A DNA stretch of 64,000 bases from Styela clava (taxonomy: Eukaryota; Chordata; Ascidiacea; Stolidobranchia; Styelidae): NCBI RefSeq assembly GCF_964204865.1, contig NC_135261.1, positions 8,122,001 through 8,186,000 on the forward strand, read 5' to 3'. Both the position numbers and the translations under genes were made by a program. Each line of letters starts with the position of its first letter. The first letter of the stretch is position 1. Shown here piece after piece: positions 9,052 to 40,694 of this stretch. The notes below the pieces were generated by a model that searched no databases, had not been told where the DNA came from, and saw nothing but the letters and a program-made list of their open reading frames with translations.

Positions 9052-10459
9052 ATCTGTTGGGATTTTATTGGTAATGTTTGATAGTTTATTCGTTCGATTA
9101 AAATGCATTTTGAAATGTAGTTCGTTACTAAAATGTGCCGTATTTTGAAAATTGACAACATCGAGACCGCGAATTAAATGCACGTACGTCATGCACCCTC
9201 AATATTTCTAAATGGTTGAAAAGTTGAAAATATTTTATTTTTCTTCAATTTTGACTTTGATGATTTTTGCCAAATAGTTGTATATCACAACATTCGTATT
9301 TACAATAATCACTAACATTAGTTTGAAACATTTCTGAAGATGTTAAAGATATATATGTTTATGTAAAATACAAGCAACCGGAGCAAATTAATGAATTCTG
9401 TTTTATCTTGGGTGGTTGTGATTCATGTGTGCATGAAAACAGGGATTCGGATACATATGAATCTTTTCATGAGTTCAAAAGAGTATGGGAAGCTGTCAAA
9501 CATATTTTCACCAATTCAGCCAAAGACAGATTAAGCTGTTTACTGTTCTACCTCGGCCATCGCTGTATATTAAGTTTCAAATTACCTACTACTACCCCAA
9601 GTCGAACTTATATGAATGGCGAGAAGCATGTGATTTCATTTAAGATATTTATATATCTCCAAATTCAATATAAAATCAGCGACTCTAATTCGTGTATTCT
9701 TAGAGACCATACCAAGCCCGGCGGTCTAATAAGCTATTGCGGGGCCCCATGCAAAACGGATTCGCGGATTCTGTATGGGTAAACGGGTCCTCTGCGAACA
9801 GGTGGCCTAAGGTCGGTTTTCAATCATGCTTTATACAGCAGTGTACTAAAAGGTCAGAAACATATTTGAAATAACACACAAAACAAAAATGAAAAAGTAA
9901 TAACGGGACAAACACTATTTCAACAAACTCATTGGAAGCATTGCATGAATTTTCTGAGTTAATGAGTCATATACATGATTGTTACGTCACAAGTGAATCA
10001 TAAAACAAATGATTGATTAATCTGTGTATTGAAAGCACAATTGTTTTATCGGACAACGCTACAAAATTAAATGGTATGGTAAATGGCCTATATTCAAATT
10101 TGTATTTCATATTTGTATTTCAGTTCTTCATCTATTGAAAGAGGTCAAGGTTGAATCATCAACCTTTTGCATTAAAAACATGAAAAATCAAAGACGACAA
10201 GCCCATAAGATTCGAGGACTTGTCAGTTCGACTATGGGTGCGGCTGTTATTTATCGAATATTCGATATAATATGTTAATATACGTGAAAATGCTTGAGAT
10301 ACAATAGAAAATATCAAGTAGTAAAGAAGTGTACTGTGACAACCGAGTTTCAAATACCGAACCGTTATTTTAATGTCTTGCTTCATTTTGTATCAGTCTT
10401 AGTTATATTATTATATCAATAGTTTTACATTAATATACAAGTCGGGCGATTTCTTTGTT
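9052..10459. other. Intergenic, no supported gene
   Basis: A plus-strand open frame near 9408-9782 has no recognisable domain and mixed base composition. I treat it as chance. No repeats with clear ends were seen. Confidence 0.45.
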
Positions 10460-11068
10460 TTAATCGCCATATTGGTTTTTATCGCGATCGACGTCAGGAA
10501 TGGGTTCTTCCCTATTGTGGCAGAAGCCATTTTCATTCCATTCATTATGCTCTTCTGCTTCTTCGATATATTCGTTCCCAGTGCATCCGAGGACATCATC
10601 AATGACTTTTGCGCTACAGTAATGCATTCTGCAATCGAACTTAGTCCCGGCATTCGAACGAATATCGTATTTTATATTCTCATCATCGTCATAATCAAAT
10701 TCAGCGTCTTCATCGAATCGGCAAAGATAATTATCTTCTTCAATTCCAAAATCGGTTACGATTGTGAATTCAAGTTGACATTCTTCTCTGAAAACTTTCC
10801 TACGTTGTTTTATATTCTTTTGACGACCTTTTCGACGATAAATCGGACTTCGTTTTTCGCGAGACTTGTCCAACTTATCATAAAAAATTTCAACATAATC
10901 ACTATATTTGCATTTTTCAGAATTCCCTTCACACTTGTCGCTTCCTGTGTCTTTAAGGCATTTTTGTCCAAACATGCACACTAGCTCCTTCTCCCTCCTT
11001 AACTTACGAATTCGTCGCGATGTAACATTTTGGTTGTTGACTTTGCCAGAGCAGTAATAAATAAGCAT
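10460..11068 (-). CDS. Cysteine-containing dibasic-rich protein, unknown family
   Basis: 202 aa read on the minus strand from ATG 11068. It has eleven cysteines (6, 31, 37, 46, 53, 97, 116, 146, 151, 162, 183). A furin-type REKR site ends at residue 73 and begins a strongly basic stretch (RRKGRQKNIKQRRK). Acidic runs follow (FDYDDDEN; IEEAEEHNEW). This pattern fits a processed extracellular factor, but the N-terminus as read lacks a clear signal peptide, so an upstream exon may be missing or the start may be wrong. A consensus TATAAAAGG lies about 30-40 bases upstream of the ATG. The stop overlaps a variant poly(A) signal (GATTAAAAC). The hydrophobic open frame on the opposite strand is the antisense shadow of the acidic runs. 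No family is recognised. Confidence 0.5.
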   Translation of the reverse strand: MLIYYCSGKVNNQNVTSRRIRKLRREKELVCMFGQKCLKDTGSDKCEGNSEKCKYSDYVEIFYDKLDKSREKRSPIYRRKGRQKNIKQRRKVFREECQLEFTIVTDFGIEEDNYLCRFDEDAEFDYDDDENIKYDIRSNAGTKFDCRMHYCSAKVIDDVLGCTGNEYIEEAEEHNEWNENGFCHNREEPIPDVDRDKNQYGD

Positions 11069-12555
11069 AACAGTTGTAGAAAAAATTATTTATGAACAAC
11101 CTTTTATAGATGAAACAAAATATATACATATATATAAGTTTAGAAATTTTGTAATAAGTCAACATCGCAACCCATTATGTCTTTTTATCTGGGTTACAAA
11201 TAAAATCATGCGATATCTTCTAGTGAAATAGAAAATATGATAAAATGAACCGATAACCCAAGCAAACTTGGTTTGACCCGACACGACACGTACGTGATCT
11301 CGTACCCAAGGTGTTCCTTACTACGCGTCTACACATTTGAATGAAACTATAAAATGATGAGGCGTATGACAGGTTTAAAGAAACGAGGAAATAAGATGAT
11401 GAATTCCATTTAAAACAATGTAAAAGTAATTAGATTTGTTTTTACGTCTGGCTCATGTTCGTATCAAGAATGGTCCGCTATCTGAAAGCATGATTACGTC
11501 ATACATCCCGGGTTGTCACATTAAAATTGAATATTCAAATGAATAGTGGTGTGATTGTGAGTAGGCGTATCATATATATCACAAGATTATTTAACATGAC
11601 GTGGATCTATCAATCGTTTTGCTAAATTCTTTTTGTTTGTGGAATTGTTGTTGAACGAGCAGATTTCCAATCATAGTCATGGTGGACAAATGGCGATATG
11701 CATCTTGACTATTCTATCTAGTTGAAGAGCCCTGCTGCGCACTAACACAAATGTATGTCGGTAAAGTTTCGACTCGCCAAAGTCACACTTCCTCACACAA
11801 GCAGTTTGCAACAATGCGTGACGTTCGTAAACGTCTATTGAAACAACTTGTGTTTGTTGGGTCATTTACGTTTGCTGATATTGGACACGAAATGGACTTG
11901 TGAATCTATTTGCTAAATTGTTGTTGTCAGTACTCTTGTTGTGAAAAAATCCCTTTCTTTTCAACTACCGGACCTATCGATTTTAAATTTCCAGTGTTTC
12001 AAGATTGTTATTGTTTCTCGAAGGCTATTATCTTGAAAAATTTCTGTGGGCTCTGTAGGATTCGTTTGTCACTCCAAAGTTTTGTGTAATGACATCATGG
12101 AAATGAAAAATTTCGCATCGTGTGGCGATTCCGCGATCGCACTTCAGAAATATGATGGTTTGCAGAATCGAGAGTTATATGATAAGAAAGACTACCGGTA
12201 CTGTAACATATTTGATACTACTTTGTTTTGGCTTTCGTGTCCATATATTCGAGCATTCCAATATTCTTCATTCTACATTTTTCGATATTAAAAATAGCCC
12301 TATGTTACCCTGCATTATGATGTCAAATCGTGTTCATGGTTATTATTTATTTCAAATAGGCAATGGCAAATGAGGAACTAATAGGGATAATACAGCACAA
12401 AACAAAATTTATATTACATTACATCCAAGTATATACAATAGCGCGAATTTTCGAACAGTGTACATGGTGTTGCCGGCCTTTCTCCAATCGAGGCTTGAAC
12501 ATTTTGGTGGTTCTTTGCTCGACATCTACTTGACCATGAACAAACACATGGAGAT
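11069..12555. repeat. Intergenic with a dispersed-repeat copy (about 11886-12260)
   Basis: From about 11886 the sequence shares ordered blocks with three other places in the window (about 26348-26560, 30600-30930, 35112-35590). The blocks are ACACGAAATGGACTT, GAAGGCTATTA, a GACATCAT-like block and GTCCATATATT. The rest has no gene. The trailer of the T-box gene (12556 downward) lies here; a TTTATT at 12346-12351 is a possible AATAAA for it. Confidence 0.5.
11100..11108 (-). promoter_or_regulatory. TATA box candidate
   Basis: The minus strand reads CTATAAAAGG about 32 bases before the ATG at 11068. If used, the start of transcription would fall almost on the ATG. Confidence 0.4.
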
Positions 12556-14496
12556 TTAGTTGGTTTGTACGATGTTGTCATTGATTGGTGAAGAATATCC
12601 TTCATCTGAATATGGTTTGTAAAGAAATTCTGTTGAGTTTTCGTCCGAACATTCGTCGATTTGATGTGGAGTGATATTCTGCACATAGGGTGTATTCTCG
12701 ATAGTTTGCCATTGAGGTTCTCCTGGATGTTGTTGCTGCTGGTATTGATGTTGCTGATCTATCGACTGAGCAGGTAGTTCGCCATATGCAGTCGAGTAAA
12801 TTTGCTGGCTCGTTGAAGACGCAAGATTCATATGCTGGGTGTACTGTTGCACATGCCCATTTGAGTAGTCTTCTTCCGTTATATTAGTTGTAGGTAAGTA
12901 TTGCTGTGCTTGGACTGGATATTGTGGGACATGCGAAGCATAGTCGGAATATCTGTAGTTGTTTGTAGAATAATAACCAGTATTGTGGGGTAGAGAAGCC
13001 GAAGCGTAAGTCGATGTCACCAAATCATCGGGGACATATGTTGACGGTAATGAATCTGTGCAATAGGGTAGGGCGGAATATTGGCTAGGATCAGCTGATG
13101 GAATATTGGAAACAACGTTTTGTACGTGTGGCACACTTTGTGGGTAATCTGGTCTAAATCTCTTTGCAATAGAATAGTCCGGTATTTGATATTGTTTTTG
13201 TTGGTATTGGGCTCTTGCTGATTTACTTCCTCTTGCTCCGTCTTCGCGAAAGCCTTTTGCGAATGGATTATTTGCAATCTTCAGTTTTGTTAGCTGATAG
13301 AAAAGAATTGATATATTAATTATCAGGAAATTAACAATAAGAGCGTTCGACTCAATTTTTTAAATTGGAATTACGAACACTTACCTCTGTGTTCTGGTAT
13401 GCTGTAACGGTAATGAATGATGTCACTGGCAGTGGAAAGGTTTGCATTGTTTCGAGATTTGATGGATCTTCAGATTCAATAATATGTATACGAACGTGAT
13501 ATTTGTGCATTGAATGCATGATCAACTGAAATTAAAAAAATAAAATGTCAATTGTATACAATTTAACGTTACGAACCAATGAACAGGACAAAAATGATGT
13601 AGTTTTTTTGGGGGTTGCCATTGTATAACTCACAAACAAATCTATGCTCATAGACAGATGGTAGCTAAGTTTGTGCATTCAATTCAATTTGAAATAACTT
13701 ACTTTTCCGTTAACGTAATTTGCAGCCGCGTTAGAGTTTGACAATTTTGCTTTGTGGAAAGATACGAGCCCTTTCATTAACTTTGCTCCAGTAGCTGGTG
13801 AATCTTGGTGGACAAAGTAGCGAGGAGCAAATTCAACTTCCCCTGGACCAGCAGCAGTCCATTCTCCATTTTGAAATCTGTATCGATAAGAGTCATCTCT
13901 GGCAACGCTCATCAAAACACAATACTTTGATGCTGGCTTGAGTCCTGTTAAGCGTATTCGACATCCAGGGAACATTCTCCTGTGATAATCAGAATAATAA
14001 ATAAACTAAATTTCCTTACTTAAATTTAAATTGATTAAATGTAAAATAATGAATATATATAAAAAGTACAAGTGAATAATATTAATATACCTTCCAGTTT
14101 TGGTCAAAATCATTTCAGTACCGACATTGTGAAATTGTTCCCACAGTTCGTGTTGATCTAGCGAGACGTTGATGGAAGAACTGATGGAACTGGATACTAG
14201 TTGTGGAATAGTTGTAGAAGTGGTGGATGATTGTGCTGAGTATGGATGGAGCCGTTCTAAAATTTTAAAAATAATTGTTTAAAATACCCATTCATTTATT
14301 ATGTATACAAACATTATTGTAACAAAATTATTTAGTTACAACAATGAAACTTACCTGTGTTCAAATGACCCCAATATCTCTGTTCGTATTCAGTATTGTT
14401 TTGTTGCCCCTGTACATCGCAGGGCTGGTATCCATAAGCTCCATATTGGTTGGAATATAAATCCGTTGAAACTGCTTTATGGCTCAACAAATTCAT
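12556..14496 (-). CDS. Tbx6: Tbx6-like T-box transcription factor A, 5 exons
   Basis: DNA-binding transcription factor; ascidian Tbx6 genes act in muscle and mesoderm specification. Exons on the minus strand: 14496-14355, 14256-14091, 13979-13703, 13525-13385, 13293-12556. All junctions are GT-AG and the frame is continuous, giving 487 aa. The T-box spans about 85-260: [52 protein letters not shown]. The DSPATGA, VSFH and AKGFRE blocks point to Tbx6 rather than Brachyury. The C-terminus is rich in Q, Y and S (QQHQYQQQQ). Exon 3 is fused where copy B has an intron (after the YRFQ/YKFQ block). Odd residues: HQDSP instead of HPDSP, AKLM instead of AHWM/AKWM, and YHVR instead of YxPR. An in-frame ATG at 14562 would add 22 residues. 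I prefer 14496 (MNLLSHK) because the extra stretch is basic and low in conservation signal. Confidence 0.9.
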
Positions 14497-17400
14497 GATT
14501 GAATATATATTTTTAGTCAACGTTTTCTTGTACTTGATTGCTTGATGGTGGATGCTTTGCAACTGATGTCTTCCTCGAGATTTTCGGGAGATTTATACCT
14601 TATGATATTCGTACTCACTGAGATATTTTTTTTGTAGACGACTATAAAAATTGCATCTGCTTGTGCTTTGGAGATATTGATGCCGCCGTCAACCTACATT
14701 TTCGCAGTTACCTTCGCAGGAAAGCACAGAACTTATCTCATTTCTCACCTAATGCTCTTGATCGGTTGCAATCTTCTCAGTGGGTTCCTGAGCAGTAAAC
14801 TTAAGTTACGATATGGTATCATGCCGTTAAGATAAGCTTTTGATTTTCCGACAAGAACAGTCGAGTCGTATATTCTGATAACAAAGTGACAAAATGATAA
14901 CGACAAGTTATGATAAGCCTTCATTAAAACGGGAGATAAGAAATTCGATATTAAGATAATAAAAATGTTTAATATACGCTAATGAACAGATAAGAAAGTA
15001 AACCTAAACAATTCAAAATGGCGTATATTATTAAATTCATGATCTTTTGTATGTTCAATGATACAACCCAAAACTTTAAATTTTTAAATTCGAATTTTCA
15101 ACAAACCCAGGAAAAAGGCTGCAAACTTTTGTCTCTACTATACTGTAATTTTCCACCTTACAAATACGTTTTTAAGTTGAATATATAATTTTTACATTCT
15201 CCTGAGAACGATTACCGTGAAACAAATAACTAGATTATATGGACTGGTATTGACTTTACAATAGCGATACTGTACAGTTGTTCTCAGATGATAGAATGGA
15301 AATGAAATAATATTTTATGATCACATGAATTAGGTTTTCTTTTCTACCCAATTTCACGCGTGTTGTTATGTATGTTTCCCGTTTAAATACAATAAATTTA
15401 CGATTTAAGGCGATTTCACGCATTTCAATGAATGGTTCAATACAAATGTCATGGCACACTTCACACTTCCTAACAACAGGTAGATGACTGTTTGGATTTG
15501 CAATAAATATTCATTGTAATTGTCCGAAGCGAACTATCTCCTGTTTTAAGAATGTTTCTTCAATATATTGCTCGTTTTTCATCAAAGCAATTTCATCATA
15601 TTTTTGCATTACAAAATTTTACTTCCATTATGAACAATAGTTTTAAGTAATGTTCATCGCTGACGAAGCCAGATACTTCTAAAATATTTCGATTCACCAT
15701 ACACTTATTGTATTGCAAATGTACCTATGTTGGTCCAATCCGAAATTATTTTTCAAATCGCTAAAACAATAGTCAAACATGTTTTTCTAGCAATGAAATC
15801 CCACAGTCAAGGCAAAACATTATTATGAAAACAAAATATTGTCAATGTTAGATTTAAAAGTATTCTTCAATGCACCAAACAACCGTGAATATTGGGAACT
15901 TCCAAAAGAATATTCAGTTTAGTACAGTAAAGTTCAATCCACACTGTATTTGGCGCATAAACTAACAACAAAACTAGCACTGAAATATTATTAGGTGCAC
16001 ATGCTTTTCCTTCCACGTCCACGATGTTATATTACAATCAATAGTTTAAAGCAGTAGCATTTTAGCGTAGAATAAGTACAAAATATACTTTCTTTAATTT
16101 CCACCACCATACAATAAGTCCATCAAATAATATATATAATATAAATTCACCGGAAAAAATATAGTAAAGAATTTGATGAAAGTAAGACAGTAACAAGTAA
16201 TAAATACTAAATGATGCAAATACAGAAATTACTTTTGACTGAGAGATATAGTATGGAAATGTACTGCCTGTTTTGGTGACATAGAATGAAAAACACAATT
16301 GTAAAGTTAATAATAATATAAATTCTCCCAAAAAATATTCACTTCAGAAGTGCGAGCAAAAGTAAATATTATATTATATAATTATATGTAATTTCACTCT
16401 GTTCTATAAAAAATAAGGGTATTGTTCATCGAACCAATGAACATCGTATATTGATAACATCCGCAAAGCCCAACATATGCGGTGATTACATATTGTTATC
16501 ATCGGCGTAAAAACAACTGTCGGGAACTTCAGGAGAACGCGAAGGCGATAACAAAATTGTTTTCATTTCCGTTATCCCCGCTAATTACCGTTAAACAACG
16601 TTGATCAATTAATATTCTGATAGTGTAAAACATTCTCTCAATTAGTCAGTAATAACTGTTTGAAAAGAATAAATTAATAACCGTGTAATAAATATTATAT
16701 TTCCGTTATGATTTTAATGTAGCAATTTTGTAAACTCGTTTTTGGAAATTGAATACATAAACTTTCAAGGTGAAATTTACGTTTTTTTTAAATGTATTCT
16801 GAAAGACCCATATTTATTTTATCTCTGATTTTTACAAACTATGGAATTATTAATATATCACATGTTAGACTAGGATTATTTTGAACAATCTGCAGAAAGA
16901 AACACCCAATTTACATCCTGGGTAACATTTACCAATTTAATTTACAGAGTGTCGACAAAGTTGGGGCACTGGTGATGTACATTTGAAGTTAGTGTTGAAA
17001 GAAGTAGAATTAACAAAACAGACGCATACTTGAGTTATAATTCAAATATGTCATGTGTTTTTGCTATTTTGCAAGAATTGTACTATATCAACTTATATAT
17101 TATTGCCTATTCTTAATTTCTAAATCTACAAAAAATAATATTTCCTCATCAACTAATAAAAAAATTAAAATTAAGTATACTTCAACAAAAATGAGCATTT
17201 TAGCTCTTCAAAGAAATAGCACATATCCAATATCTTCTGCATTTACTTTATGAAAATTCGAGTATCCAATCAGCCTTAAGTTGCAAGTCTTTCGAACTTG
17301 AAGAGACTTGTTTGGCAATAGTTTTTTAGTTTTTCTCACTTACTATAAGTTATTTCGTTTGAAAATTTAGGCGCTGTCATATGTTTCCACGAATGTGTGA

Positions 17401-18832
17401 GATATCGTGCTAATAATGTTTCTCCTAGCAACTGCCAAAATCGTATGTTTTCACAGTTTTGCGTCACCATAGGCTTTCAATACCGAGAGATGAGTTTAAT
17501 TCATAGCACCCTAAGCTCAAGCAGCTGCGATTTATGTCGCTGCTATTCGCAGAGTAAAATTTTACAGTTGGTGAAATTCCATGGAAAAAAACAAAACAAT
17601 GACAGTGCACCGTACGGAATTATGACAGTTACGCTTACATCTTTTAGTTTCATCTACCCGAATCTTTGATCTCTTGCTTTCAAATAAAATACCAGTAGAA
17701 TTTCTTATTTTCGATTTGTATGTTCATCATTGATACAGAAACTTGTTGAGAAGTTACTGAATTTACCTCACTCAGTTACAGAAATTGTCAACAAAGTCCA
17801 TTACTAGTCCACGGTGTTCACCCAATTGGAGTAAAAAAAGAGACCCCAGATCATTTCAAATATAACATTTTCTACATCAATGCAATGTAACCTGAACTGA
17901 CATTTATTTTATTACAAATAGTAATAGTAATATTACTCCGAAAATCTAAACACAAACAGAGTATTAAAGTTAAAGACAGAAGGCAGTGGTTTGTTACAAC
18001 ACGACAAACTCACATTATAAACCTGTGTGTAAGTATGACTGTTTTACAGCAACATCCTAATTTCAACTTGTATTATGTGAATTGGGATTTAGCTCTTTTG
18101 TTGCTTTGAATTCCCAGCGTCATCTTATTCAAGAATCCTGGAACAGTACAGTACAGGAACGAATAATAGACAGTTTGTCACATTATCCCACAACAAATAT
18201 CCTGAATATTTGAGTTGAAATCTCTCATCTTGCGTAGAGTCTGCCTCGATACAGCAAATATCACACAAATACAGCAAATTTTAATCAATGGAATAATTAG
18301 AATTCCATTGTAGGGACATTGGATATATTAGGATCTACTTTCTGTATTCTCCAAAAATATTGGTCCCATTTTGTATAATTTTTAAATGAATTGAAATATG
18401 TCATTTTTACTTTAGAGAAAATTTTTGCATATTGGCCAATATCTTTATTTAGATAAATGTTGCATGCCGCCCAAGTGCGAACGAATGTATCTTGATACCA
18501 CCCACAGTTTTACTACGTCAGATAACCGCTGTATTGGGCGGTTGAATAGGAGATGCCGACACGTTATCTTGCATCTGTACGAAAGAGCGAAAGTGTGAAG
18601 AAGAACAATAGCGGACGACAATACAATAATTCAGCCACCGATAAAAAGTTGCGCGCGATACAAAAGCTACGGAACCAAAGAGGAAATCAGTCATTATAGA
18701 ATTGTCAGCTTAGTAAAAGGTTCTATATTTTGTTACACCGATTCTCTGCCAGAATATTATTATATTGAATTATAGTTTGAACGCATTTGGTCAGTATTGA
18801 AAGAAGAAACATTAAGTTAAAGGTTTCTTACA
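14497..18832. promoter_or_regulatory. Shared 4.3 kb divergent intergenic region of the Tbx6-like pair
   Basis: The two T-box genes are transcribed away from this stretch. It holds no supported gene. It contains the GATA cluster near gene A and a second group of GATAAC/GTTATC sites at about 16458-16575 (both strands). Near gene B (18480-18700) there is a more GC-rich stretch with TACGTCA and GTTATC, which could be its promoter. No TATA box was assigned. Confidence 0.4.
14831..14992 (+). promoter_or_regulatory. GATA-motif cluster upstream of Tbx6-like gene A
   Basis: GATA occurs eight times on the plus strand in about 160 bases (starting at 14831, 14877, 14896, 14912, 14935, 14947, 14955, 14989). 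Several are full GATAAG or GATAAC sites. They lie 335-500 bases upstream of the first exon of the minus-strand T-box gene. GATA factors are maternal and early zygotic regulators in ascidians, so an enhancer is plausible. Confidence 0.45.
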
Positions 18833-21800
18833 ATGTCGGCTTTCCCAATGCCAGATGTCTCAAGCACTTGGGGCTACCATCCAGGAGCTACATCGACGAG
18901 CGTATCAGGATATCCAGGAAGCAACGCTACACTGCCTATGCATTTTAACGGGTATTCATATATGGGAGCAACACCTTTAACACAGCAGCCACGGAGGCAT
19001 TTTCCCAATGCAACACCAGTTTTGGGAAATTATATTGGAAATCCAACAGAAAACGACCTATCGTTAGATCCATACGTTTCAAAGTTTTCACCAACTACAC
19101 AATGGCAAATGACTGGTGAGATTTCTATTTTTTTAATAATGTTAAGTCTTGAAACAGCAACTGTAAAATCTTAGAGGATTAGTAAAAATATAAATTGCCA
19201 AAATTGAAAAATTGCTAGTTTCAATATCATGTTTTATCATAAAACCCACGCTCAATACGTCTGGAAAAGAATATCTTGGCCCAATGTATCGATGGAGATT
19301 TCATAGAAAGATATTCTTTTTGTCTAGTATGGCCAATTTTGTTATAGCGCAAGTGACAAACTTAAGTAATGGCCTAATAAATCATATTAATATTTATTAC
19401 TATCTTTCGGATATTGTATGTTTGTTTTACAATGAAAGTTTTAATTAGCAAAAAGATAACATAATTATTTATTGTTCAATTAAATTTGTTCCCACAGGTA
19501 AAACATACACGGGAGATAATGATCATTATTCACCGCAAGATAACATCGATAACAATAAGAACTTTTACGACTCTCCGGTTAATAATGGACAATTAATGGA
19601 ATTACCGGATCCAAAAATGCAAGTGCAGTTATGTGACAGAGAATTGTGGGACCAGTTTTCAAAAGCTGGAACAGAAATGATTGTTACTAAAACCGGAAGG
19701 TATGGTTACTCACATTGAATTTGGTGTACTGATGAAATATTAAGCATATATTCTGATAATTTGAAAATCACAGGCAATAAAAGTCTGATACATAATAAAT
19801 TAAATATCTCATACTTAACACCCTGTATGTGATTTAATTTTTTCGATCAGAATGCTCGTACATGTTTTCAAATAGATATTTAGAGTTATAATAATCACAC
19901 ATCAGCTACTTACGCATAATGTAACCAGGAAAACTGCAAAGCATTGAAACTGCATTTTGATCATTGAATGAACAATCGCGAAGAGTATCGTTGAATGTAA
20001 TCCCATACATTTTATAAAGCTCTGTTTTTTAATTATGACTTTATCTTCTCTTTCAGACGAATGTTTCCTGGCTACAGAATTAAACTCTCAGGGTTAGACC
20101 GAGACGCAAAATACTGTGTTATGATGGATATTGTTAATGTGGACGACCACCGATATAAGTTCCAGGTAAGCAATATATTAACAACATTATTGTAAATAGC
20201 GAGCTTTTGTATTGATATAGATTTGAAAAATCCCCATTTTATCTTGACAGCATGGTGAATGGACAATTGCGGGAAGGGGAGAACCACATCTTCCGCAGAG
20301 ATTTTTTCTTCATCCTGACTCTCCAGCAACAGGTGCAAAATGGATGAGTGAAATTGTGTCTTTCCATAAAGTGAAACTCACGAATTCAGTAGGAAGAGAC
20401 GTGGATGGCAAAGTGAGTAAAACATTCAGTTTCTTTATTTTTTTTTGTGACTAAGATTTTTACTTTTTTCACATTGAGATTGATTTCGTGTTATAAAGAA
20501 TCAAAACTATATTTTTCTCTATTTTTCTATATTTATGACTTTCTCAAGCAAATTCTATTTAAATCCTCTAAATCAACCAACTTTTAAAATAATGAATTTT
20601 ACAAATGTTTATACATCATTTTCAGATTGTCCTGAATTCAATGCATCGATATCAACCTCGTATACATATTGTTCGCACCAATGATCCTACAAGAGTTCAC
20701 ATGCAACGATTATGTACGTTCGCATTTCCCCAAACAGTTTTCATCACAGTTACTGCATATCAAAATCCAGAGGTAATATTTTATATATAGCAGTATTTTC
20801 AAATTCTTACTTTTGATCTCCAATTCAGAGAACACTGTTTGTAATTCCCTTCACCAAAGTTACTAGGATCATACGACTGCTTATTTTAAATTACCCATGT
20901 CATGTTTCCATTGTTTCTGCTGTATGAAAGTTGTGTAACGACATAAATAAAAGTAAAATGAGGAGGAGAGGAAATGATAAACGGGAAAATACCAATGAAG
21001 ACTTATTGTTAAACTTTATATTATAATTTTATAGGTAACAAAGTTGAAAATTGACAATAACCCATTTGCAAAAGGCTTTCGTGAAGATGGCGCAAGAGCG
21101 AAGAAACCAAGAACGTCGCAGAATCAGTTTAATAACGAATTTCATCAAGTAACACCTTACGCAGAATCAAAAAGGCCTGCTTATGAAATGCATTACAGAC
21201 AAACACCTTTGCAGCATACCCCGGTTATGGGAAATCCTATTTCTCGATTGGGTTTTGACAATGGCGCATCTCCAGAGCTAAACAAACTGAGGTCGCACAA
21301 CAATGGCTTTTCTCAATATAGCGGGACAAGTTTTTCAGAAGACTACAATTCAAATGCACATACCAGCTACGGCCAAAGTGTTTCTAATTCCACATTTCCA
21401 GACTATTGGAAGACACTTAAATCGGATCAGAACTGTTACGGTTCCTCAGAACTTTATTCACAGCCGGGGCAAAATATGCAAATGAATCAAAATCACCATA
21501 CAACAGTTATACTAGCTAACAATCTGTCAATATCCCAAGGTACGCCAGGAGCACAAGGTGCGAGTAGTTTGCCGCATTTCAGCCTTTCACCAGACAATAA
21601 TACAATATACAAATCCAGTACACAACACACAGATCTGAGGACAGGATCCCCGCAAAATTTTGACGATATATTGGAAGAATCTGTTCATAGCATCACACCA
21701 TGTCAAAGCAAAGGCCAGGACAAAGTTACTCGTTCTTCTGATAGCGGGATTGGTTCTTCGCCATCTACCATGTCCGATGACGACAATTCACAAGCGCCAA

Positions 21801-22192
21801 CTATAGCTATGAACAACAGTGTACATTCAGAGGCCAGGGATATTGGAGAAATGCCCAAAGCGCGCACAGAAATAACAGAAGAGCACGATAGTAATAAAAG
21901 TTTCGAAGACCTGCTGACTCAGTCACCACAAAACATTCAAAACCTTCAAGTTGTTAATCCACTCACCGAAGAGAATTTGCTAACAAATGATTCTTCAAAC
22001 GATTCGGCATCTACTCATCACGACAACTCATTCCCAACAACGGCTTATGTTCCTGAAAGCCAGCAAAGTCAATTTGGAAACCCAGAAGCTATTTTTGCTT
22101 TTTCACAAGATACGTTTCATCGTTCTTTCACATCAGAATCGAACGGAACAGATGATGCCATAAACTGGGAAACAGGACTTGTTAAGATGTAA
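18833..22192 (+). CDS. Tbx6: Tbx6-like T-box transcription factor B, 6 exons
   Basis: Exons: 18833-19115, 19498-19699, 20057-20165, 20251-20412, 20626-20772, 21035-22192. All joins are GT-AG and in frame, giving 686 aa. The T-box is at about 143-318: [89 protein letters not shown]. It keeps the HPDSP, W and YxPR residues that copy A has lost. The 368-residue tail, nearly all in one exon, is rich in S, N, Q, T and D with acidic patches, fitting a transactivation domain; no known domain is seen there. Its extra intron falls after YKFQ. An AATAAA lies at 22307-22312. The start is the first ATG of the exon, in the context TTACAATGTC. Confidence 0.93.
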
Positions 22193-25229: not shown

Positions 25230-26809
25230 AAGAAGGCCTCACTCGAAATTTTTTTACGACCTATTTGTATGGTATGACGATCGAAGGTAACTTAAACGGT
25301 GCCAATTTGGTATGCGTTCAAACTCATAAAGTCATTCTTATAGAATTCAGTTTCTGTCCCTAGCAAAATCACTTAGATTGCATACCAATGTAGCACCACA
25401 TAAACTTCACAGTGGATTATGTATCCAGAATGATTGTATTTGGCGGCCGCGCGCTCCAGTATCTGCGAGGTTGTGGATAATAAGCAATATTGCAAATTTG
25501 GCTAAAAATGGACTGATGTTGCGTGTATTGACCAGATAGATATAATTCTTTGAATTATCGTGGTCCATTTCTCCTTCAAGACCAATTTGATAAGCAGTAA
25601 CGACCTAAGCAAGTATGCAAGACTGTCAAGTGAATAAATCAAATGCTGCTCACCTCGTTCGTAGCATTTTTTATCATGTTTGAAGGCTTTTGCTTAAAAA
25701 TACCTACATCTAACTTTAACATCAATTTCTTCTTTCATAGTTGCATAGAGTTGTATTTATTTCAAGGCCTAGTAGTCCTCCAAATTCACCATTTATTATC
25801 ACATGATTTCAGTAATTTTGTGACCTTCTGACCTGAATTGTATTTGTTTTATCTTGATCTTCTGTGATGTCATAAATCACTGTTAGTTATAATATGCTTT
25901 CGTATTCGAGTATATGACAAACACGAAAGTTGTAGGCTACTTTACCAGAGTAACAATTCAAATATAATATTTTGGTACTTCTATTCACTCATTAACATAC
26001 TATCTATGCGCCATGATTTAAAACAGTTTATGACATTTCTTCCGAAAATAAAATTATTGTTGGTGATATATTATTTAATAAACAGTGTTTATATATTTCC
26101 ACATTTGATGAAAAGCTGGTGTCTCGACGGGTTATCATCAAGATACCTAGACGAGTTGCTATGAACAAATGAAGACCCGGGACTTACAGAAACACAGTTT
26201 TTATTAGGTAATGCATGAAGCATAAGAGTAAAGTAAAATATAATTGTACAGTCTTACATTGGGGGGAATTCCGTATTGACAATAGCACGATGTACTCGCA
26301 ACAAATACACATGAACGGGAAAAATTCCAATATATCTGCTTTTGTTGAACACGAAATGGACTTATGGTTCGTTTTGGTATTTGTTGTTGTTCTTCTTCAT
26401 GTTGTTACAAGTTACCTTATGAAAAAATGCGCGTTTTCCATTCACTAATGGACCAATTGCTTTAAAATTTCGAGTGGTTGAAGAATGTATTTTCCGCTAG
26501 AAGACTTTAATTTATTCTTCATTTTTCTATGAATCCTTTGAGTTCTGCTTTTCATCCAAAATTACTTTATATTCTAGAAAGTTTCATGGCCACAAAATGC
26601 TTACAACAAAGTTGTCATTGGCGCGAGTTGATTTATCTTTAGCTCGCTACAGATATTCAGTCTTCAAAGTATCAGTTTCCGTATCATTCACTTGAGCATC
26701 ATTTCCGGATGATGCTGTGATGCATGTCATAACCCTGTACAAAAATTCACATTCTCTACTCAAGCCGTAGGGCTTTACTGTTACAGCCGATAAGTCAGAC
26801 TGCGGAGAA
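25230..26809. other. Intergenic with a dispersed-repeat copy (about 26348-26560)
   Basis: No supported gene. From about 26348 the sequence CACGAAATGGACTTATGG, then GGACCAATTGCTTTAAAA, then GTGGTTGAAGA, then GCTAGAAG matches blocks in the other three copies of this family. From about 26585 the sequence is shared with the decayed oxygenase copy near 28080. Confidence 0.45.
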
Positions 26810-27781
26810 ATGGAGATACCGGTTATAAATATTGCAAAAATACTTTCTTTGAGATCGGAAAACGAATCCAATATCGGGTATTCCGATTCAGTAAAAGTAG
26901 GTGAAAAATTAGTCAAATCATTTTCAACTCATGGATTTGCATTAGTCGAAAATCACGGAATTCCTAAAGAAAATATTGATGAAATTCGCTCTTTATCTTA
27001 CAAGTTTTTCGCATGTGACTTGGATTATAAAATGAAGTTTCTCTCTAAAAGTGGAACCACGTTATGTTATGATCCGGTTGGAAGTCAATTTGCTACACCT
27101 GGACGACCTTTTGATTATCATGAATGCTTTCGTGTGCCGTCATGTGCTTATGATTGCGACTGGCCAAATATTAAGGAACTGAAAACAAAATGTCAACAAT
27201 TTGAAAAAGTGTGTAACAAGTTGCTTCTTCGTCTGCTCACATCTATTGGTCAAGGAATGGGTTTGAAAGATTCTCAATTATTCCTCAGGTATCACAAAAA
27301 AATTGGACACAGTACCAATACGACCAGACTAAAATTTGTTCATTACCCTCCAATACCTGATGACGTTGTAATTCAAGAATACCAGCTTCGAGTTGGGGAA
27401 CATACTGATATCGGCTCCCTGACCATTTTATTTCCGGACGGTGTTGGTGGCCTACAGATAAAAAGAAGGGATGGAAGTTTTATGGATGTACCTTACATTC
27501 CTGGAACCGCCATTGTCAACGTTGGTGACATGCTACAGTACTGTAGTGGAAAGAGATTGAAGTCCACCGTCCATCGAGTAGTCATACCAGAAGAAACAAC
27601 TAATCGAGCAATCTCCAAACTGACAGTTGGATATTTCGGTTGCATGGACAATGAGGCCGAGCTCAGAAAAGTGGAATTCAACGATGCGGAACTCGACAGT
27701 GAAACCACGAAATCGATGGATTTCATCAAAGCGGGTGATTTCTTCAACAAGCGATTCAACGGTTTTGTGAACTACGAATAA
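26810..27781 (+). CDS. 2-oxoglutarate/Fe(II) oxygenase, isopenicillin-N-synthase-like
   Basis: 323 aa, single exon, ATG at 26810. N-terminal DIOX_N domain about 3-110 (IPVINIAKIL; HGFALVENHGIP). The 2OG-Fe(II) oxygenase core spans about 170-280. The iron ligands are visible: H198 and D200 in GEHTDIGSLTIL, and H255 in KSTVHRVV. NVGDMLQYCSG follows the usual NxGD pattern. The family's RxS motif, which binds the 2OG carboxylate, aligns with K270-L-T272 in SKLTVGYF, a conservative but unusual change. Length is normal for the family (300-350). Substrate unknown. Plant, fungal and bacterial relatives oxidise many small molecules. It sits next to its own decayed copy (28080-28560). Confidence 0.85.
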   Translation: MEIPVINIAKILSLRSENESNIGYSDSVKVGEKLVKSFSTHGFALVENHGIPKENIDEIRSLSYKFFACDLDYKMKFLSKSGTTLCYDPVGSQFATPGRPFDYHECFRVPSCAYDCDWPNIKELKTKCQQFEKVCNKLLLRLLTSIGQGMGLKDSQLFLRYHKKIGHSTNTTRLKFVHYPPIPDDVVIQEYQLRVGEHTDIGSLTILFPDGVGGLQIKRRDGSFMDVPYIPGTAIVNVGDMLQYCSGKRLKSTVHRVVIPEETTNRAISKLTVGYFGCMDNEAELRKVEFNDAELDSETTKSMDFIKAGDFFNKRFNGFVNYE

Positions 27782-31676: not shown

Positions 31677-32993
31677 TCATGATACAGAATTGTATCGAAA
31701 CTTGTACAAATTTTTATCTGCACCTCCACTGAATATAATGTCATCATTACTCCAATCCAAACACATAACTTTATCTTGGTGTGCATTCACATCAAAAAGT
31801 GGAGTTTGCGGACTTCGTATATCCCATAATTTAACTGTATAATCGAGAGATCCAGACACTAGTTGATATTGATTACTGGGTGACCACTTTACACAGGTGA
31901 TCCATCCAGTATGTGAAGTTAGATTACATTTAATTAAAGATCCTTTAGAGAATATTTCATCTTTTCCTCGTGGATCCCAAATTCTGATATGCCGATCCGA
32001 ACTTCCGGTCGCAAGTAGATTACTATGAAAAGAGTAGTCACATGCTAAGAATACTTTTGCTCCACGCAAGTTTAATTTTTCTTTACCCTCATTTATGTCC
32101 CAAACATTGATTGTATGATCCCAAGACACACTGCATAAATCGGAAGATGATAACCATACAAGTGATGACACTGCTTCTCGGTGACCTGCTAATGTCGATT
32201 TTGGAACTCTAGTAACACCACGCTGCTCTATACGCTGACGTTTTTTCTTGTTTCTTGCTTTTCGAAAATCTTCTGGCTCATTTGAGTCATCTTGTGGAAC
32301 AGGAGATGTCGACCATAATTTTATTGAACTGTCCCACGAACCGGTAGCAAAGGCTTCCATTTCAGGATGAACTGACACGCAATCAACACTTTTAGAATGC
32401 CCCCGGCAGCAAAATAAAGGTTTTATAGTTTCTTCACCTTTTTCCCATTGCCATAAAATGGCACTTTGGTCCTGGGATGAGCTTATCAAATAAGCAGTCT
32501 TATCATTATTGACACGATTTACCCATGATACTGCCTTTACAGGTTCTGTATGACCGAAACCATATATACAAGGTTTTGAACTATCCATATTCCAAATTGA
32601 TACAGTGCAATCATACGATCCTGTCAAAATGAATTCTTTTGTACTTTGTACACTGCTAATCCAATCATCCTGTGTAAATTGATCTTCTGGTTTCGGACTT
32701 TCTTGTTTCAAAATGTATTCAATTTCCACAACCTTTTCTGTCGATATACCTTTATTCTCGATGTATTGGTTAAGTGGAATTCTCAAAAACTCTCCATTCA
32801 CAAGAAAATCAAATTCCATATTTTGATATTCATTTTCATCATCTATCGCATCTTTGACTCCTTCCTTCAAAACTTTATTTACGAGATTTGTTAATTCTGT
32901 AACAGTTACTTCTCCCGGCAGTTCAAACATGGTATCTGCAATCTTATATTTCTCATCCTGAGTTACAAGCTTAGCTTGAATATGATCCGCCAT
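31677..32993 (-). CDS. WDR12: Ribosome biogenesis protein WDR12 (Ytm1 homologue)
   Basis: Component of the PeBoW complex (Pes1-Bop1-WDR12), needed for 27S/32S pre-rRNA processing and 60S subunit assembly in the nucleolus; that role is family knowledge. 438 aa in one exon, close to the usual 420-430. An N-terminal NLE-type ubiquitin-like domain (about 7-90, MEFDFLVNGEFLRIPL, VVEIEYI) binds the AAA-ATPase Rea1/midasin in relatives. Seven WD40 repeats follow from DDWISSVQS to the C-terminus: LTGSYDCTVSIWN, SSSQDQSAILWQW, TGSWDSSIKLWS, VSWDHTINVWD, TGSSDRHIRIWD, SGSLDYTVKLWD, SGGADKNLYKF. A basic insert (RKARNKKKRQRIEQ) lies between repeats 3 and 4, as in other WDR12 proteins. AATAAA lies one base after the stop. 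Confidence 0.96.
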   Translation of the reverse strand: MADHIQAKLVTQDEKYKIADTMFELPGEVTVTELTNLVNKVLKEGVKDAIDDENEYQNMEFDFLVNGEFLRIPLNQYIENKGISTEKVVEIEYILKQESPKPEDQFTQDDWISSVQSTKEFILTGSYDCTVSIWNMDSSKPCIYGFGHTEPVKAVSWVNRVNNDKTAYLISSSQDQSAILWQWEKGEETIKPLFCCRGHSKSVDCVSVHPEMEAFATGSWDSSIKLWSTSPVPQDDSNEPEDFRKARNKKKRQRIEQRGVTRVPKSTLAGHREAVSSLVWLSSSDLCSVSWDHTINVWDINEGKEKLNLRGAKVFLACDYSFHSNLLATGSSDRHIRIWDPRGKDEIFSKGSLIKCNLTSHTGWITCVKWSPSNQYQLVSGSLDYTVKLWDIRSPQTPLFDVNAHQDKVMCLDWSNDDIIFSGGADKNLYKFRYNSVS

Positions 32994-33488
32994 ATTGTTA
33001 GGTATCTTTTAAAACAAAATATTATTAACACATTATTACATAAAGAGTACATGTGAATGAGGCTCTTTGACACACGATTTACGTTCGTTCATTCACTGAA
33101 TATGCAGAAAAAATGTGAATCACATCATAAAAAATATTGTTTTTTATACAGTGATTTCATGCGTCCACCCCAAACGCTCTATAGATACATTGATATCTGG
33201 ATATGCAAGACATATTGTTTTATTTCTGGTTCAGCATTGCCAAGCAAATTAATACACCCCAGGCAGCCGGGATAAATGGTGGACAAGAGGCTTGTACCTG
33301 TGATCATGAAAATGTGATGTTAACATAGTTAATTACAACGCTTCATCCTTTGCATTAGAATATAATAAGAAACATGAATTATTCAACATTGGCCTATGTC
33401 TGTATGTATTACATATAATCGGATGAAGGCAACCAAACCCAAAATAATGGGTCTCGTGTAGTTTCATACCATAACTAACTTGTAAAGA

Positions 33489-34590
33489 TTTTTGGGGTCT
33501 GGTATAGTTTAGTACAACATGTACTTCTAGTTGACCTGGCTCAACAATTTTTGCATATGTCAATCCTAACCCCCAACTGACTACGTCACCGAAAAATTAC
33601 GTCATTTCGACGTCACAGTGGCGTAATAAGGCCCTCCGAAGCCAGTCTGGATTTCAGGGCCTTTTCGAACGAGAAATCGGGCGTGCAATCAGAAATTCCC
33701 GCGTGCAAATAAGAATTTCTGGCGTGCAAAACAACTGCGCCCGCTAAACTGATTTCGAACTAAGATGCCTCTCAATACATCCGCGTAAAAATAAGTTGGA
33801 TCATAGCAAAAATGGACGTTTGACCTTTGACCCCAAAACATCATTTCTATATTTTGTCACTAATTTTGAGAGTGTTTGTGCGACTTTAGATACCGGTACT
33901 GTTCAGTACATCCGTGTAAAATTATTGTATTAAAAATGCGCTGAATCAGAGCCATAACTGCCCAGCGTCGGTGAGGAGGCGATTTTTCTCACGGGATTCC
34001 TATCATTCAACACGATATGGTGATTTTTGCTTCGCATTTTTCGATCAGGCCAAATCTTGCAAGAAAGTATTAGTCGACAATTGTAAAGTTATAATTTTTT
34101 GGCATCTTTATATTACTAGATTATTGATTTAAAAACTATTTAAACCGATTTACATTGGTGAGCAATTGCAAATTTTCGGCGTGCAAAATTGAATTCGCTC
34201 GCGTGCATTTTTGTGGAGCGCTAGCGCCCTCGGGCGTGCATCTGCCATGAAATCCAGTCTGGCACCAAAGTACAGAAGTATGTGGATGGTCGTTTAAAAC
34301 GCGCAGACGATCACCCGAAATCGAGCAAGCAATTTCTCTCGTTTTCTCGCCACAACAATCACTATAGGAGAGAGATCGCCGGCTTTAGCAAGTTCGTTAT
34401 CGGCGGCGCAGATGTCATTTCGGGCGATCGTAATTATACTTTGGCAATCTCTATGACGTGATGGTGACGCCGTAGTGACGTAATTTTTGGATGGCATAGT
34501 CAGGTGGGGGTTAGGAATAGCATATGCAAAATTCGTTATGCTACGCCCACCGGAAGTACTTGTGGTACTAAACTATACTAGACCCCAAAA
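33489..34590. mobile_element. DNA transposon-like element with over 100-bp inverted repeats
   Basis: Left arm about 33489-33605, right arm about 34475-34590. Shared blocks in order from the tips: TTTGGGGTCT, GTATAGTTTAGTAC, GTACTTC, TTTTGCATATG, CCTAACCCCCA, and AAAAATTACGTCA at the inner edge. The 0.9 kb interior has no transposase frame. A related end-like sequence (GGGTCTCGTGTAGTTTCATACCAT) lies just outside at about 33449, suggesting nested or adjacent copies. Target duplication not resolved. Confidence 0.65.
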
Positions 34591-35745: not shown

Positions 35746-36134
35746 ACAAGAGCTGGATATTTCAATGAAATAGAAAATGTCAGATTTACCTGTATCCAGC
35801 TCTGTGTAAATATCTCATCCCAACCCCACCGCAATTTAAAAAAAATGACTAACTCAAATTGTACAAGGACAAGAAAATGGCAAAATCATCGCTGTTGAAA
35901 GTGGGATTGATAATTACTCCTCATTCTTATTCCTATCTACAAACTAATAACTATACGGCGTCTTAAACACCTATTTGGAAACCCAGCGACAAGCAATTTT
36001 TATATCTAATTTGACGAAGTTTATTTAGCGCCGGCCTGGTCTGTTGAAATGGTCGAATCGGTCTCTATATATTCTAACCTGCTTAGAATTAGCTTTCAGT
36101 AACCAAACCTGGTTTTATTTTGCACGGGCGGTAT

Positions 36135-36494
36135 CCCCCTGCACCAACTCAAATATTGAAGTCTTGAGTCTGTTCAAGAGTGCTGTACTACTCTCTTGAT
36201 GAAGTTTAAAGCTGGCCAGAGAAGAAAGGCAACATCTACGAGGCATTGATTATTCGCTGTATAATTAAGGTTTTAAATCTAACCTAAACTAGCAGAATAG
36301 TCTAACTTGATTCTCCCCCTGCACCAACTCAAATATTGAAGTCTTGAGTCTGTTCAAGAGTGCTGTACTACTCTCTTGATGAAGTTTAAAGCTGGCCAGA
36401 GAAGAAAGGCAACATCTACGAGGCATTGATTATTCGCTGTATAATTAAGGTTTTAAATCTAACCTAAACTAGCAGAATAGTCTAACTTGATTCT
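36135..36494 (+). repeat. Two perfect 180-bp tandem monomers at the LINE 5' end
   Basis: The 180 bases from CCCCCTGCACCAACTC (36135) recur without a difference that I can see from 36315. The second copy runs into the ORF1 leader. Position just upstream of ORF1 recalls the promoter monomers of mouse and some invertebrate LINEs. Perfect identity implies a recent duplication or an active source. Confidence 0.85.
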
Positions 36495-36548
36495 TCGCTG
36501 CCTATTTTAACATCAATTCCAGCGTATATCTCAAACATCCACAACAAC

Positions 36549-37496
36549 ATGGCTTCGATCAATAATACCACCAAACCAAAGCCTAAGCAACGCCTGAGTA
36601 GAAGTCTTCCCGATCCAGGCCTTTCACCAATTGGATCTGTATTGCAACAACAGAAGGAACACTCTAACTTCCAGATAAACCTACAGGAGGCAATACAAAC
36701 AAACATCATGAACCAGTTACCATCCCTAATTGCCAAATGCTTAACAGAAAACTTCAGCTCTGCAAACTTTTCATCAGAATACCTACCAATGAGTCCAGGT
36801 CTAAAAGAATGCATGGAGGAACAGATGATATCTCTGAAAGAAATTAAACAAGACCTTGCTTCTATCAGAGAATCACAAAGCTTCCAATCTGAGAAATATG
36901 ACGAAGTTATTGCAAAGCAAAAAGTTACAGATGAGAAACTTACTCTTTATAGCAAAAAAATACGAGATCTCGAAGAGTTAGTTTACGATCTTGAAGATGA
37001 GTTATTTTATGTCACAGAAAAAATAGAAGAACATGAACGTCGATCTAGGATGGATAACCTAGAATTTCATGGCATTCCATCAACCGAAAATGAAGATACT
37101 GATGAACTAGTAACACAAATCGGAAAAATTATCCATGTAGACATAAAGCCTTCAGACATCTCCGTAACACACCGCTGTCCAACAAGGAATACCAACATCC
37201 ATAAACCAATTGTAGCGAAATTCACAAACCGCAAAATCCGAGCCAAGATACTCAAAAATCGAAACTTGATCAAAACCTCTAACAATACAACATCTATAAG
37301 AGACTTGTCAAAGGTGTTCGTGGTTGAAAACCTAACCGAAAGAAATAAAAACTTATTTTACCAAGCGAAGGTCCTCAAGAAGCGATGTGGTTACGCCTTT
37401 CTGTGGACATCAAATGGCAAGATATTGATTAAAAAGAACAAAGACACGAACACTCTGTCCATAACTGATGAAGACGATCTGGATAAAATAAGATAA
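36549..37496 (+). CDS. LINE ORF1 protein, coiled-coil RNA-binding
   Basis: 315 aa from ATG 36549. A basic N-terminus is followed by a long heptad-rich helix (about 90-165: LKEIKQDLASIRE, KKIRDLEELVYDLEDELFY). A middle domain begins RRSRMDNLEFHGIP and continues with DISVTHRCPT and IVAKFTNRKIRAKIL. This order (coiled coil, then an RRM-like and C-terminal domain) is that of L1-type/transposase_22 ORF1 proteins, which trimerise and coat the element RNA. No internal stop. Confidence 0.8.
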   Translation: MASINNTTKPKPKQRLSRSLPDPGLSPIGSVLQQQKEHSNFQINLQEAIQTNIMNQLPSLIAKCLTENFSSANFSSEYLPMSPGLKECMEEQMISLKEIKQDLASIRESQSFQSEKYDEVIAKQKVTDEKLTLYSKKIRDLEELVYDLEDELFYVTEKIEEHERRSRMDNLEFHGIPSTENEDTDELVTQIGKIIHVDIKPSDISVTHRCPTRNTNIHKPIVAKFTNRKIRAKILKNRNLIKTSNNTTSIRDLSKVFVVENLTERNKNLFYQAKVLKKRCGYAFLWTSNGKILIKKNKDTNTLSITDEDDLDKIR

Positions 37497-37652
37497 GTCC
37501 AATGATTTTTCCACTGCTATACTTAAGTAAATTATTAATTCCCCTTATGACCTATTTAAGAACCTTCAGTATCTTTTGGAAAATTTCAAGCTATGACATT
37601 CCCCCCATCGCACTAGCCTATTTGATCACAATCTATTACATGTTCTTTAAAA

Positions 37653-40600: not shown

Positions 40601-40694
40601 AAGTTTACGTGAAAGCACATATGTCTCTTTTAAAATAAAATATAAGAAGGTCATGCTTTCATCTTACCTGTCTCGGGTCACCACATCTGTTTGA
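37653..40694 (+). CDS. LINE ORF2: AP endonuclease plus reverse transcriptase
   Basis: An open frame of about 1013 codons. The endonuclease is at about 53-270: HLNIRSL (N59), ALSETR (E88), ILGDFN (D199, N201), LIDHIYT (D243, H244), TDHF (D265, H266), so the apurinic-type catalytic set is present. The reverse transcriptase spans about 500-770: RVIPIFKSGN, NYRPISILS, FLDLKKAFDTVDH, QGSIIGPLAF and the catalytic FADD at about 730-733. A C-terminal region with W and H residues follows (HNTRSS, WNSIPQSLR). The frame opens with TTG; there is no ATG in frame before the endonuclease (first Met at about residue 180), so initiation must be by non-AUG start, reinitiation or a recoding event, or a base has changed. 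It is otherwise undamaged and could be active. Confidence 0.9.
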   Translation: MYPLSSPIYDLNSDPNPNWESINFHPEISSTPSQYLEISDINRVTSSFLPSEFIILHLNIRSLPKYSDNLVELISNFCTPPQIIALSETRIISDSVANVNIPGYTFIHAPSPTRAGGVGFYIDSNLNYHACSKLGLEFPNCEDIWIELKNFQPTSKIQNLVVGVIYRHPKNNIPAFTTAMSCLFEKLTMAKKQFIILGDFNLNLLDSHNNLTTKYLDMLMTNFICPLITKPTRVTSTSHTLIDHIYTNTVNFCNSSFILLSDLTDHFPVMCTISATTGNIKTNTRMKRDMTKFCVDLFRLEVESICNNYTSISIHEENFNSSFDLFLSHFKWLINKHAPLRPFSRRENKLYSKPWITKGIRKSIKHKNNMFRKKFLKGNSSQRLHFKKYKNILTHLQRKSKQMYYHNILENNRGDVKHTWKTINDIIKVRSKNESIVSELELENGATVSDPARISAEFNKFFSSVGKKLADNIPHSKKSFKAFLSAPSQHSFFLEQTTPSEVHQIILNLKKGKAVGHDGISPFFLKIVADIISPELSHFFNLSFNYGIFPSSLKIARVIPIFKSGNKNNPSNYRPISILSSIGLILEKLIYKRMLIFCTKFNLINKCQFGFQPDHSTSHAILDLTSYIYDKIDKCEFVCCAFLDLKKAFDTVDHKILIQKLQHYGFRGNVSKLLANYLSGRFQFVELGSHKSPMLPIQCGIVQGSIIGPLAFLLSVNDLSNCSNLLTKLFADDACLLASGKDLTTLQHTVNSEINKIYEWMLCNKLTVNVEKSKVMVFSRKSLTTHANILIKIRGVALEVVQSYIYLGLHIDNNLKWNTHTIELHKKLSRSVGILGKLRHYVQDATLRTVYFALFQSHIQYAITAWGSAAQTNIHKLEILQNKAVRTLSRASIRTNLNTLYHKTRVLKLSDIHTLEISKVMHQFQNNHLPTAFDNYFVSLTSVHEHNTRSSTKSNFFVPRFSLSKSQNSLKYKGVIIWNSIPQSLRESTYVSFKIKYKKVMLSSYLSRVTTSV

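Follow-up and report, generated by a model that had tools for sequence, protein, structure and literature searches.

The window analysed here is a stretch of 64,000 nucleotides (nt) from the ascidian Styela clava (RefSeq assembly GCF_964204865.1, contig NC_135261.1, positions 8,122,001 to 8,186,000 of the forward strand), and our subject is a pair of T-box genes within it, copy A and copy B, which lie head-to-head and differ in how far they have departed from the conserved T-box. Both gene models were built by picking the splice sites by hand from the sequence (Table 1). All nine introns have GT...AG ends (four of four in copy A and five of five in copy B), and the spliced frames are open. A preliminary description had proposed two complete Tbx6-class genes diverging across about 4.3 kb; this layout is borne out, with a gap of 4,336 base pairs (bp) between the two start codons, and so are the outer limits of the pair, the stop codon of copy A ending at 12556 and that of copy B at 22192. 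The gap is presumed to be a 5' regulatory region common to both copies. Three intron positions within the T-box are also common to the two genes (after TKTGR, after GK and after Q-N-x-E); exon 3 of copy A equals two exons of copy B, the intron at KFQ/HGEW being present in B and missing from A. Eight inverted pairs were found between the two genes, two of which are coding-exon pairs, and the other six have arms 22-33 nt long at 71-77%. An inverted-duplication remnant in the intergenic region was rejected on the basis of these non-exon arms, and the duplication is probably old.

Copy A matches the Pfam T-box model PF00907 with 222.4 bits against a cut-off of 26, over residues 78-259 and positions 1-182 of the 182 in the profile. 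The Pfam search covered copy A, and copy B was assigned through its top solved-structure match, which is TBX3 (1h6f, 256.6 bits, residues 132-320); the top match of copy A in the corresponding search is TBX5 (5flv, 194 bits). Neither solved-structure search has a TBX6 chain among its 14 matched sequences. The two T-boxes share identical residues at 111 of 186 positions (60%), and their identities to TBX3 are 90/182 for copy A and 106/184 for copy B. For the tree and for the comparison of conserved columns, the set consisted of A, B, TBX3 and TBX5 together with human TBXT and TBX6 in provisional versions that do not come from a database. In the resulting six-sequence tree, two references of which are thus provisional, A and B are sisters with a support of 0.98, on branches of 0.48 and 0.20, respectively.

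The motif residues that the preliminary description had quoted for the two copies (YHVRIH versus YQPRIH, for instance) had all been read correctly. Across the near-invariant scaffold made up of HPDSP, the W of HWM and the P of Y-x-PR, copy A has changed all three elements (P161Q, W170L and P206V) and copy B retains all three. In this respect human TBX3 (1h6f) and TBX5 (5flv, 4s0h), although they belong to different T-box subfamilies than A and B, resemble copy B and not copy A, as they keep HPDSP, the W and YQPR. At the codon level, copy A carries CAA (P161Q), TTA (W170L) and CAC GTT (Q205H, P206V) where copy B carries CCT, TGG and CAA CCT. Seven nucleotides, counted by eye, separate these codons, and the amino-acid differences require six changes or more; a base-call error is therefore not credible, and sequencing error was rejected as the source of the copy A residues.

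The change in copy A is wider than these motifs. Over the 75 columns that are invariant in the four references (two of them provisional), copy A keeps 60 and copy B 68, and all seven of the changed columns in copy B are conservative. The 15 broken columns of copy A include D127S, K148P, P151V, P154A, P161Q, W170L, P206V and E229V, and five of the 15 (111, 148, 158, 229 and 243) are also changed, conservatively, in copy B. T183S is a further departure in the T-box of copy A. Thus, of the earlier statement that the frame of copy A is open and the rest of its T-box intact, the first part stands and the second goes too far. Tajima relative-rate tests gave 25 sites changed only in A versus 9 changed only in B with TBX3 as the outgroup (chi-squared 7.5), 23 versus 10 with TBX5 (chi-squared 5.1), and 16 versus 4 when restricted to sites where TBX3 and TBX5 agree (chi-squared 7.2). 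The contrast in change between the two copies exceeds chance, and the excess falls on copy A. For a candidate clustering of the copy A changes at residues 148-170, the comparison with four references gave a Fisher p of 0.006, but the cluster was dropped after a scan-corrected permutation.

That copy A does not represent simple decay, as had been suggested, holds up. Its 487-codon frame is open, its Pfam T-box match (222 bits) is full-length and synonymous change between the two copies has reached saturation: the proportions of synonymous and nonsynonymous differences, averaged over both branches, are 0.76 (pS) and 0.26 (pN). In a neutral simulation with substitutions only, the frame of copy A survived in 2/2000 runs when 0.1 changes per site were applied, and in 0/2000 when the level was 0.2. 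The saturated pS next to a pN of 0.26, together with the loss of the frame in the simulation, therefore supports a long retention under constraint. The marks of a pseudogene, namely a broken frame or broken splice sites, are absent from copy A, in which the frame is open, all four introns are GT-AG and an AATAAA follows downstream. Neutral decay of copy A is unlikely.

To place the changed residues, we relied on published structural and functional work. Brachyury is reported to recognise bases through R69, F213, F217, T196 and A197, with its A-B and c-c' loops and its C-terminal helices making contact with DNA (PMC11828899). With the brachyury numbering mapped through the provisional TBXT sequence, which is consistent with the residue names printed in that paper, the five base-recognising residues are all retained in copy A (R103, T236, A237, F253 and F257), as they are in copy B. 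The same source describes a polar triad, D93-R169-H171, flanking a conserved cleft, in a pocket at most 3 Å from a possible dimer interface (PMC11828899). At the triad of copy A, the Asp is replaced by Ser127, R207 and H209 are retained, and the Pro before R207 has become Val206. The preliminary description had set the lost proline and tryptophan next to the DNA-contact strand, which the published account of TBX3 does not confirm: the His of HPDSP, placed as H187 by counting from G129/R130 along the TBX3 chain, lies in strand C' and does not contact DNA, yet H187Y cuts binding strongly (PMC4625211). Copy A retains this His, and the residue that follows it is altered (P161Q). The c-c' loop preceding that strand does contact DNA in brachyury (PMC11828899). 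The GKxEP loop, which probably sits between c and c', reads GPGEV in copy A, residue 148 being Pro in A, Arg in B and Lys in the references. Among T-box missense variants of TBX5, DNA affinity was reported as lowered in five of five studied (PMC12588321), which fits weaker binding by copy A. The rat Tbx6 mutant Oune (I174N, within the T-box and near a predicted dimer interface) is described as having normal DNA binding, less transactivation and a semidominant effect (PMC4474719). Taken together, such precedents would leave room for copy A to bind more weakly, to contact its partners differently or to act as a competitor.

Outside the T-box, 30 of the C-terminal 225 amino acids of copy A are Q and 24 are Y, and directly past the T-box there is no basic stretch in A comparable to the GARAKKPR of copy B. 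On composition, the tail of copy A is plausibly of the activation type, and its candidate nuclear signal appears weaker. As a separate observation, a D[SED]GxxS motif occurs near both C-termini, with DEGYSS at residues 472-477 of copy A (in exon 5) and DSGIGS at residues 537-542 of copy B (in exon 6). The motif was found in 0.98% of shuffled tails for A and in 4.1% for B, and presumably resembles a phosphodegron pattern.

Both the head-to-head arrangement and a functional asymmetry between the copies are already known in kind, and the A/B pair is a further example. In Molgula, two Tbx6-r genes lie head-to-head in three of three genomes examined, although with about 2 kb between the transcript starts there versus 4.3 kb between the start codons of A and B here (PMC4356046). 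In M. occidentalis, both genes are expressed in the posterior embryo; with Tbx6-r.b, 58% of embryos (n=100) show activation of a Ciona Mesp reporter, and Tbx6-r.a is reported to leave it unaffected (PMC4356046). A similar asymmetry is described for Ciona, where Tbx6-r.b and Tbx6-r.c induce muscle and Tbx6-r.a does not; unlike the pair studied here, the Ciona genes number three or four, and a head-to-head layout goes unmentioned in the parts of that account drawn on here (PMC6589888). The number of Tbx6-r copies per tunicate is given as two to four (PMC6589888). Xenopus offers a further likeness, Tbx6r being a divergent duplicate that is co-expressed with Tbx6 and differs from it in output, but the T-domain identity is 53% there versus 60% for A/B (PMC2877776). 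No protein-level cause of the asymmetry between the Ciona or Molgula copies is given in the cited portions of these accounts, and among the literature matches listed for Tbx6-r, head-to-head and tunicate, no title or abstract opening announces a residue-level account of it.

Within the intergenic region, seven WGATAA sites, all on the same strand, form an array close to copy A (Table 1). At least six such sites within 164 bp were seen in 0/2000 dinucleotide shuffles of the intergenic region (highest 5) and in 0/100 shuffles of the whole window. Among 36,864 two-fold degenerate hexamer families, WGATAA is the only one that reaches seven in the window, and 20 reach at least six. Several observations moderate this result. 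Taken as a 5-mer, GATAA (seven in 164 bp) is tied by ATATT elsewhere in the window, which weakens the array; over the intergenic region as a whole, GATA sites are not over-represented (14 versus 11.0 expected, reached in 59/300 shuffles); and the array is post hoc, since it was spotted after a scan of 12 motif patterns. Tandem Repeats Finder, run over the array, reported nothing. Ets-like MGGAAR sites number 11 between the genes versus 5.8 expected (10/300 shuffles), as one of the 12 patterns tested, and the counts of E-boxes and cAMP response elements between the genes are not above those in shuffles. In Ciona, GATA sites are reported to drive animal-hemisphere expression, and Tbx6.b to depend on Zic-r.a and beta-catenin, with a Gata.a knockdown having no effect (PMC4859511); expression of Ciona Tbx6-r.a has also been described in epidermal cells of the tail tip (PMC6589888). 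A GATA input to copy A may be taken as a testable idea, and the position of the array beside A suggests that the expression of this copy might have diverged too.

On balance, we favour the reading that this is a head-to-head Tbx6-r locus of the tunicate type, in which copy B is canonical and copy A is retained and functional, faster-evolving, remodelled in its scaffold and not interchangeable with B. Copy B would then be the conserved partner, most likely with the canonical function of T-site binding and activation of muscle and Mesp-type targets. Copy A keeps the base-reading residues on an altered scaffold (GKxEP to GPGEV, HPDSP and the W, the P beside R207/H209 and the triad Asp); it presumably still recognises T-sites, with its affinity reduced or its partner contacts changed, and would probably be unable to substitute for B in vivo. 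The preliminary description had proposed that DNA binding is altered or that the role is dominant-negative or specialised; a specialised or non-equivalent role of copy A appears to be the better-supported half of that interpretation, because the Molgula r.a gene is reported as inert, and r.b as active, on the Mesp reporter (PMC4356046).

Several points weigh against the favoured reading, beginning with the name of the genes. The identity of copy B is 58% to TBX3 and 55% to the provisional TBX6, and that of copy A 49% and 51%, respectively. By sequence alone, Tbx6 is a weak label for the pair, because these identities do not single out TBX6 and the closest structure to B is TBX3; the Tbx6-r identity of the pair would rather draw on arrangement, similarity and literature. 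The arrangement matches the three Molgula genomes and is not a defining trait in Ciona. Tbx6-r copies are reported as not assignable one-to-one across species (PMC6589888), and with a comparison set of human references, copy A may match no r.a gene. The clustering of copy A changes at residues 148-170 has no significance after correction for the scan (971/5000 permutations reach it), and with TBX3 and TBX5 as the only references the Fisher p is 0.15 and the permutation result 4629/5000. Between the genes, T-site, Zic and TCF counts stand at shuffle expectation. Finally, the mesoderm-inducing ability of the Xenopus proteins was mapped to the C-terminus and not to the T-domain (PMC2877776).

Other explanations of copy A have to be weighed. 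It is very unlikely that copy A is heading for loss, with its constraint recently relaxed and its T-box eroding. Its faster rate, the disappearance of four near-invariant prolines and one tryptophan, and the weaker basic cluster past the T-box (no stretch of eight residues with four K/R in 256-300, where copy B has GARAKKPR) are what such a course would produce, but a frame of 487 codons open across five exons, with GT-AG introns and a downstream AATAAA, the quick loss of the frame in the neutral simulation and the full-length Pfam match speak against it, while leaving room for a recent relaxation. We consider it rather unlikely, too, that copy A acts as an intrinsic competitor of B, occupying T-sites in the same cells and activating poorly, so that muscle and Mesp activation would be buffered or held down by a naturally dominant-negative factor. 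The kept base contacts and the changes to the scaffold, and possibly to partner surfaces, would suit such a role, for which the DNA-binding but semidominant rat Tbx6 I174N (PMC4474719) and the competitive antagonism of Tbx6 by vertebrate Tbx18 (PMC6589888) are reported precedents. However, DNA binding by copy A is a prediction, its own long Q/Y-rich C-terminus could activate, and Molgula r.a is reported to have "no effect" on the Ciona Mesp reporter, a loss of the native signal being unmentioned in the part of the account cited (PMC4356046).

A shift in DNA preference, by which copy A would use a secondary motif or another half-site spacing and regulate its own set of targets, is likewise given a small probability. 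The Tbrain proteins of sea star and sea urchin are reported to differ in secondary motifs with the primary one kept (PMC4166925), and the GKxEP loop of copy A has Pro for Lys/Arg, in a protein family where the c-c' loop of brachyury contacts DNA (PMC11828899); however, the base-recognising residues named in that source are all unchanged in A. Equally tentative is the proposal that the locus combines an activator for muscle and heart founders (B) with a built-in modulator (A), which pairs intact base contacts with a remodelled scaffold, has its own dense GATA array and would dampen or redirect the targets of B; copy A may then act in cells overlapping those of B or in a GATA-driven territory, such as the epidermis. 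If this were true, the locus would be a two-gene switch derived from a single myogenic determinant. The GATA array predicts that the expression of A and B differs, and the natural pair supplies candidate residues for swapping (K148P, P151V, P161Q, W170L, P206V and D127S), which could show on what part of the T-box scaffold the output depends as long as the base contacts stay in place.

Table 1. Features of the T-box gene pair and its surroundings, in positions of the window
Feature	Position	Strand	Basis or remark
Copy A coding span, 5 exons, 487 amino acids	12556..14496	-	hand-built splice model; full-length Pfam T-box
Copy A exons	14496-14355, 14256-14091, 13979-13703, 13525-13385, 13293-12556	-	hand-built model
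Copy A exon 3, with D127S, K148P, P151V, P154A, P161Q, W170L, T183S	13703..13979	-	
Copy A exon 4, YHVRIH (Q205H, P206V) versus YQPRIH	13385..13525	-	
Candidate poly(A) signal of copy A, AATAAA	12346..12351	-	
Gap separating the start codons of A and B, 4,336 bp	14497..18832	no strand	both gene models
Seven same-strand WGATAA sites, 164 bp	14830..14993	+	334-492 bp upstream of copy A ATG
Zic-like CCGCTG core (18526) and T-site-like AGTGTGA (18592), a short way upstream of copy B	18526..18598		numbers not above chance
Copy B coding span, 6 exons, 686 amino acids	18833..22192	+	hand-built splice model; TBX3 1h6f structure match
Copy B exons	18833-19115, 19498-19699, 20057-20165, 20251-20412, 20626-20772, 21035-22192	+	hand-built model
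Candidate poly(A) signal of copy B, AATAAA	22307..22312	+	

The rest of the window holds a number of further features. On the 3' side of copy A, at 10403-11089, long frames of 193 amino acids (plus strand) and 209 amino acids (minus strand) overlap; the minus-strand frame, the one of the two that was scanned, has no Pfam match. No Rfam match at the gathering score was found in the window. Two apparent single-exon genes are located beyond copy B. The first (26771-27778, plus strand, 336 amino acids) has DIOX_N and 2OG-FeII_Oxy domains and may be a retrocopy or horizontally acquired, and the second (31680-33008, minus strand, 443 amino acids) has NLE and WD40 domains and may be a retrocopy. An inverted repeat at 33490-34590, with arms of 139 nt that are 79% complementary and 823 nt apart, is a possible transposon remnant. 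Finally, positions 36134-40691 contain a possibly young retroelement of the type without long terminal repeats, with two open reading frames measured from stop to stop: the first has 336 amino acids and matches Baculo_FP_2nd (46 bits), and the second has 1022 amino acids and matches an endonuclease (31.6 bits) and a reverse transcriptase (96.6 bits). On its 5' side (36134-36493), two identical tandem units of 180 nt look like 5' promoter monomers.

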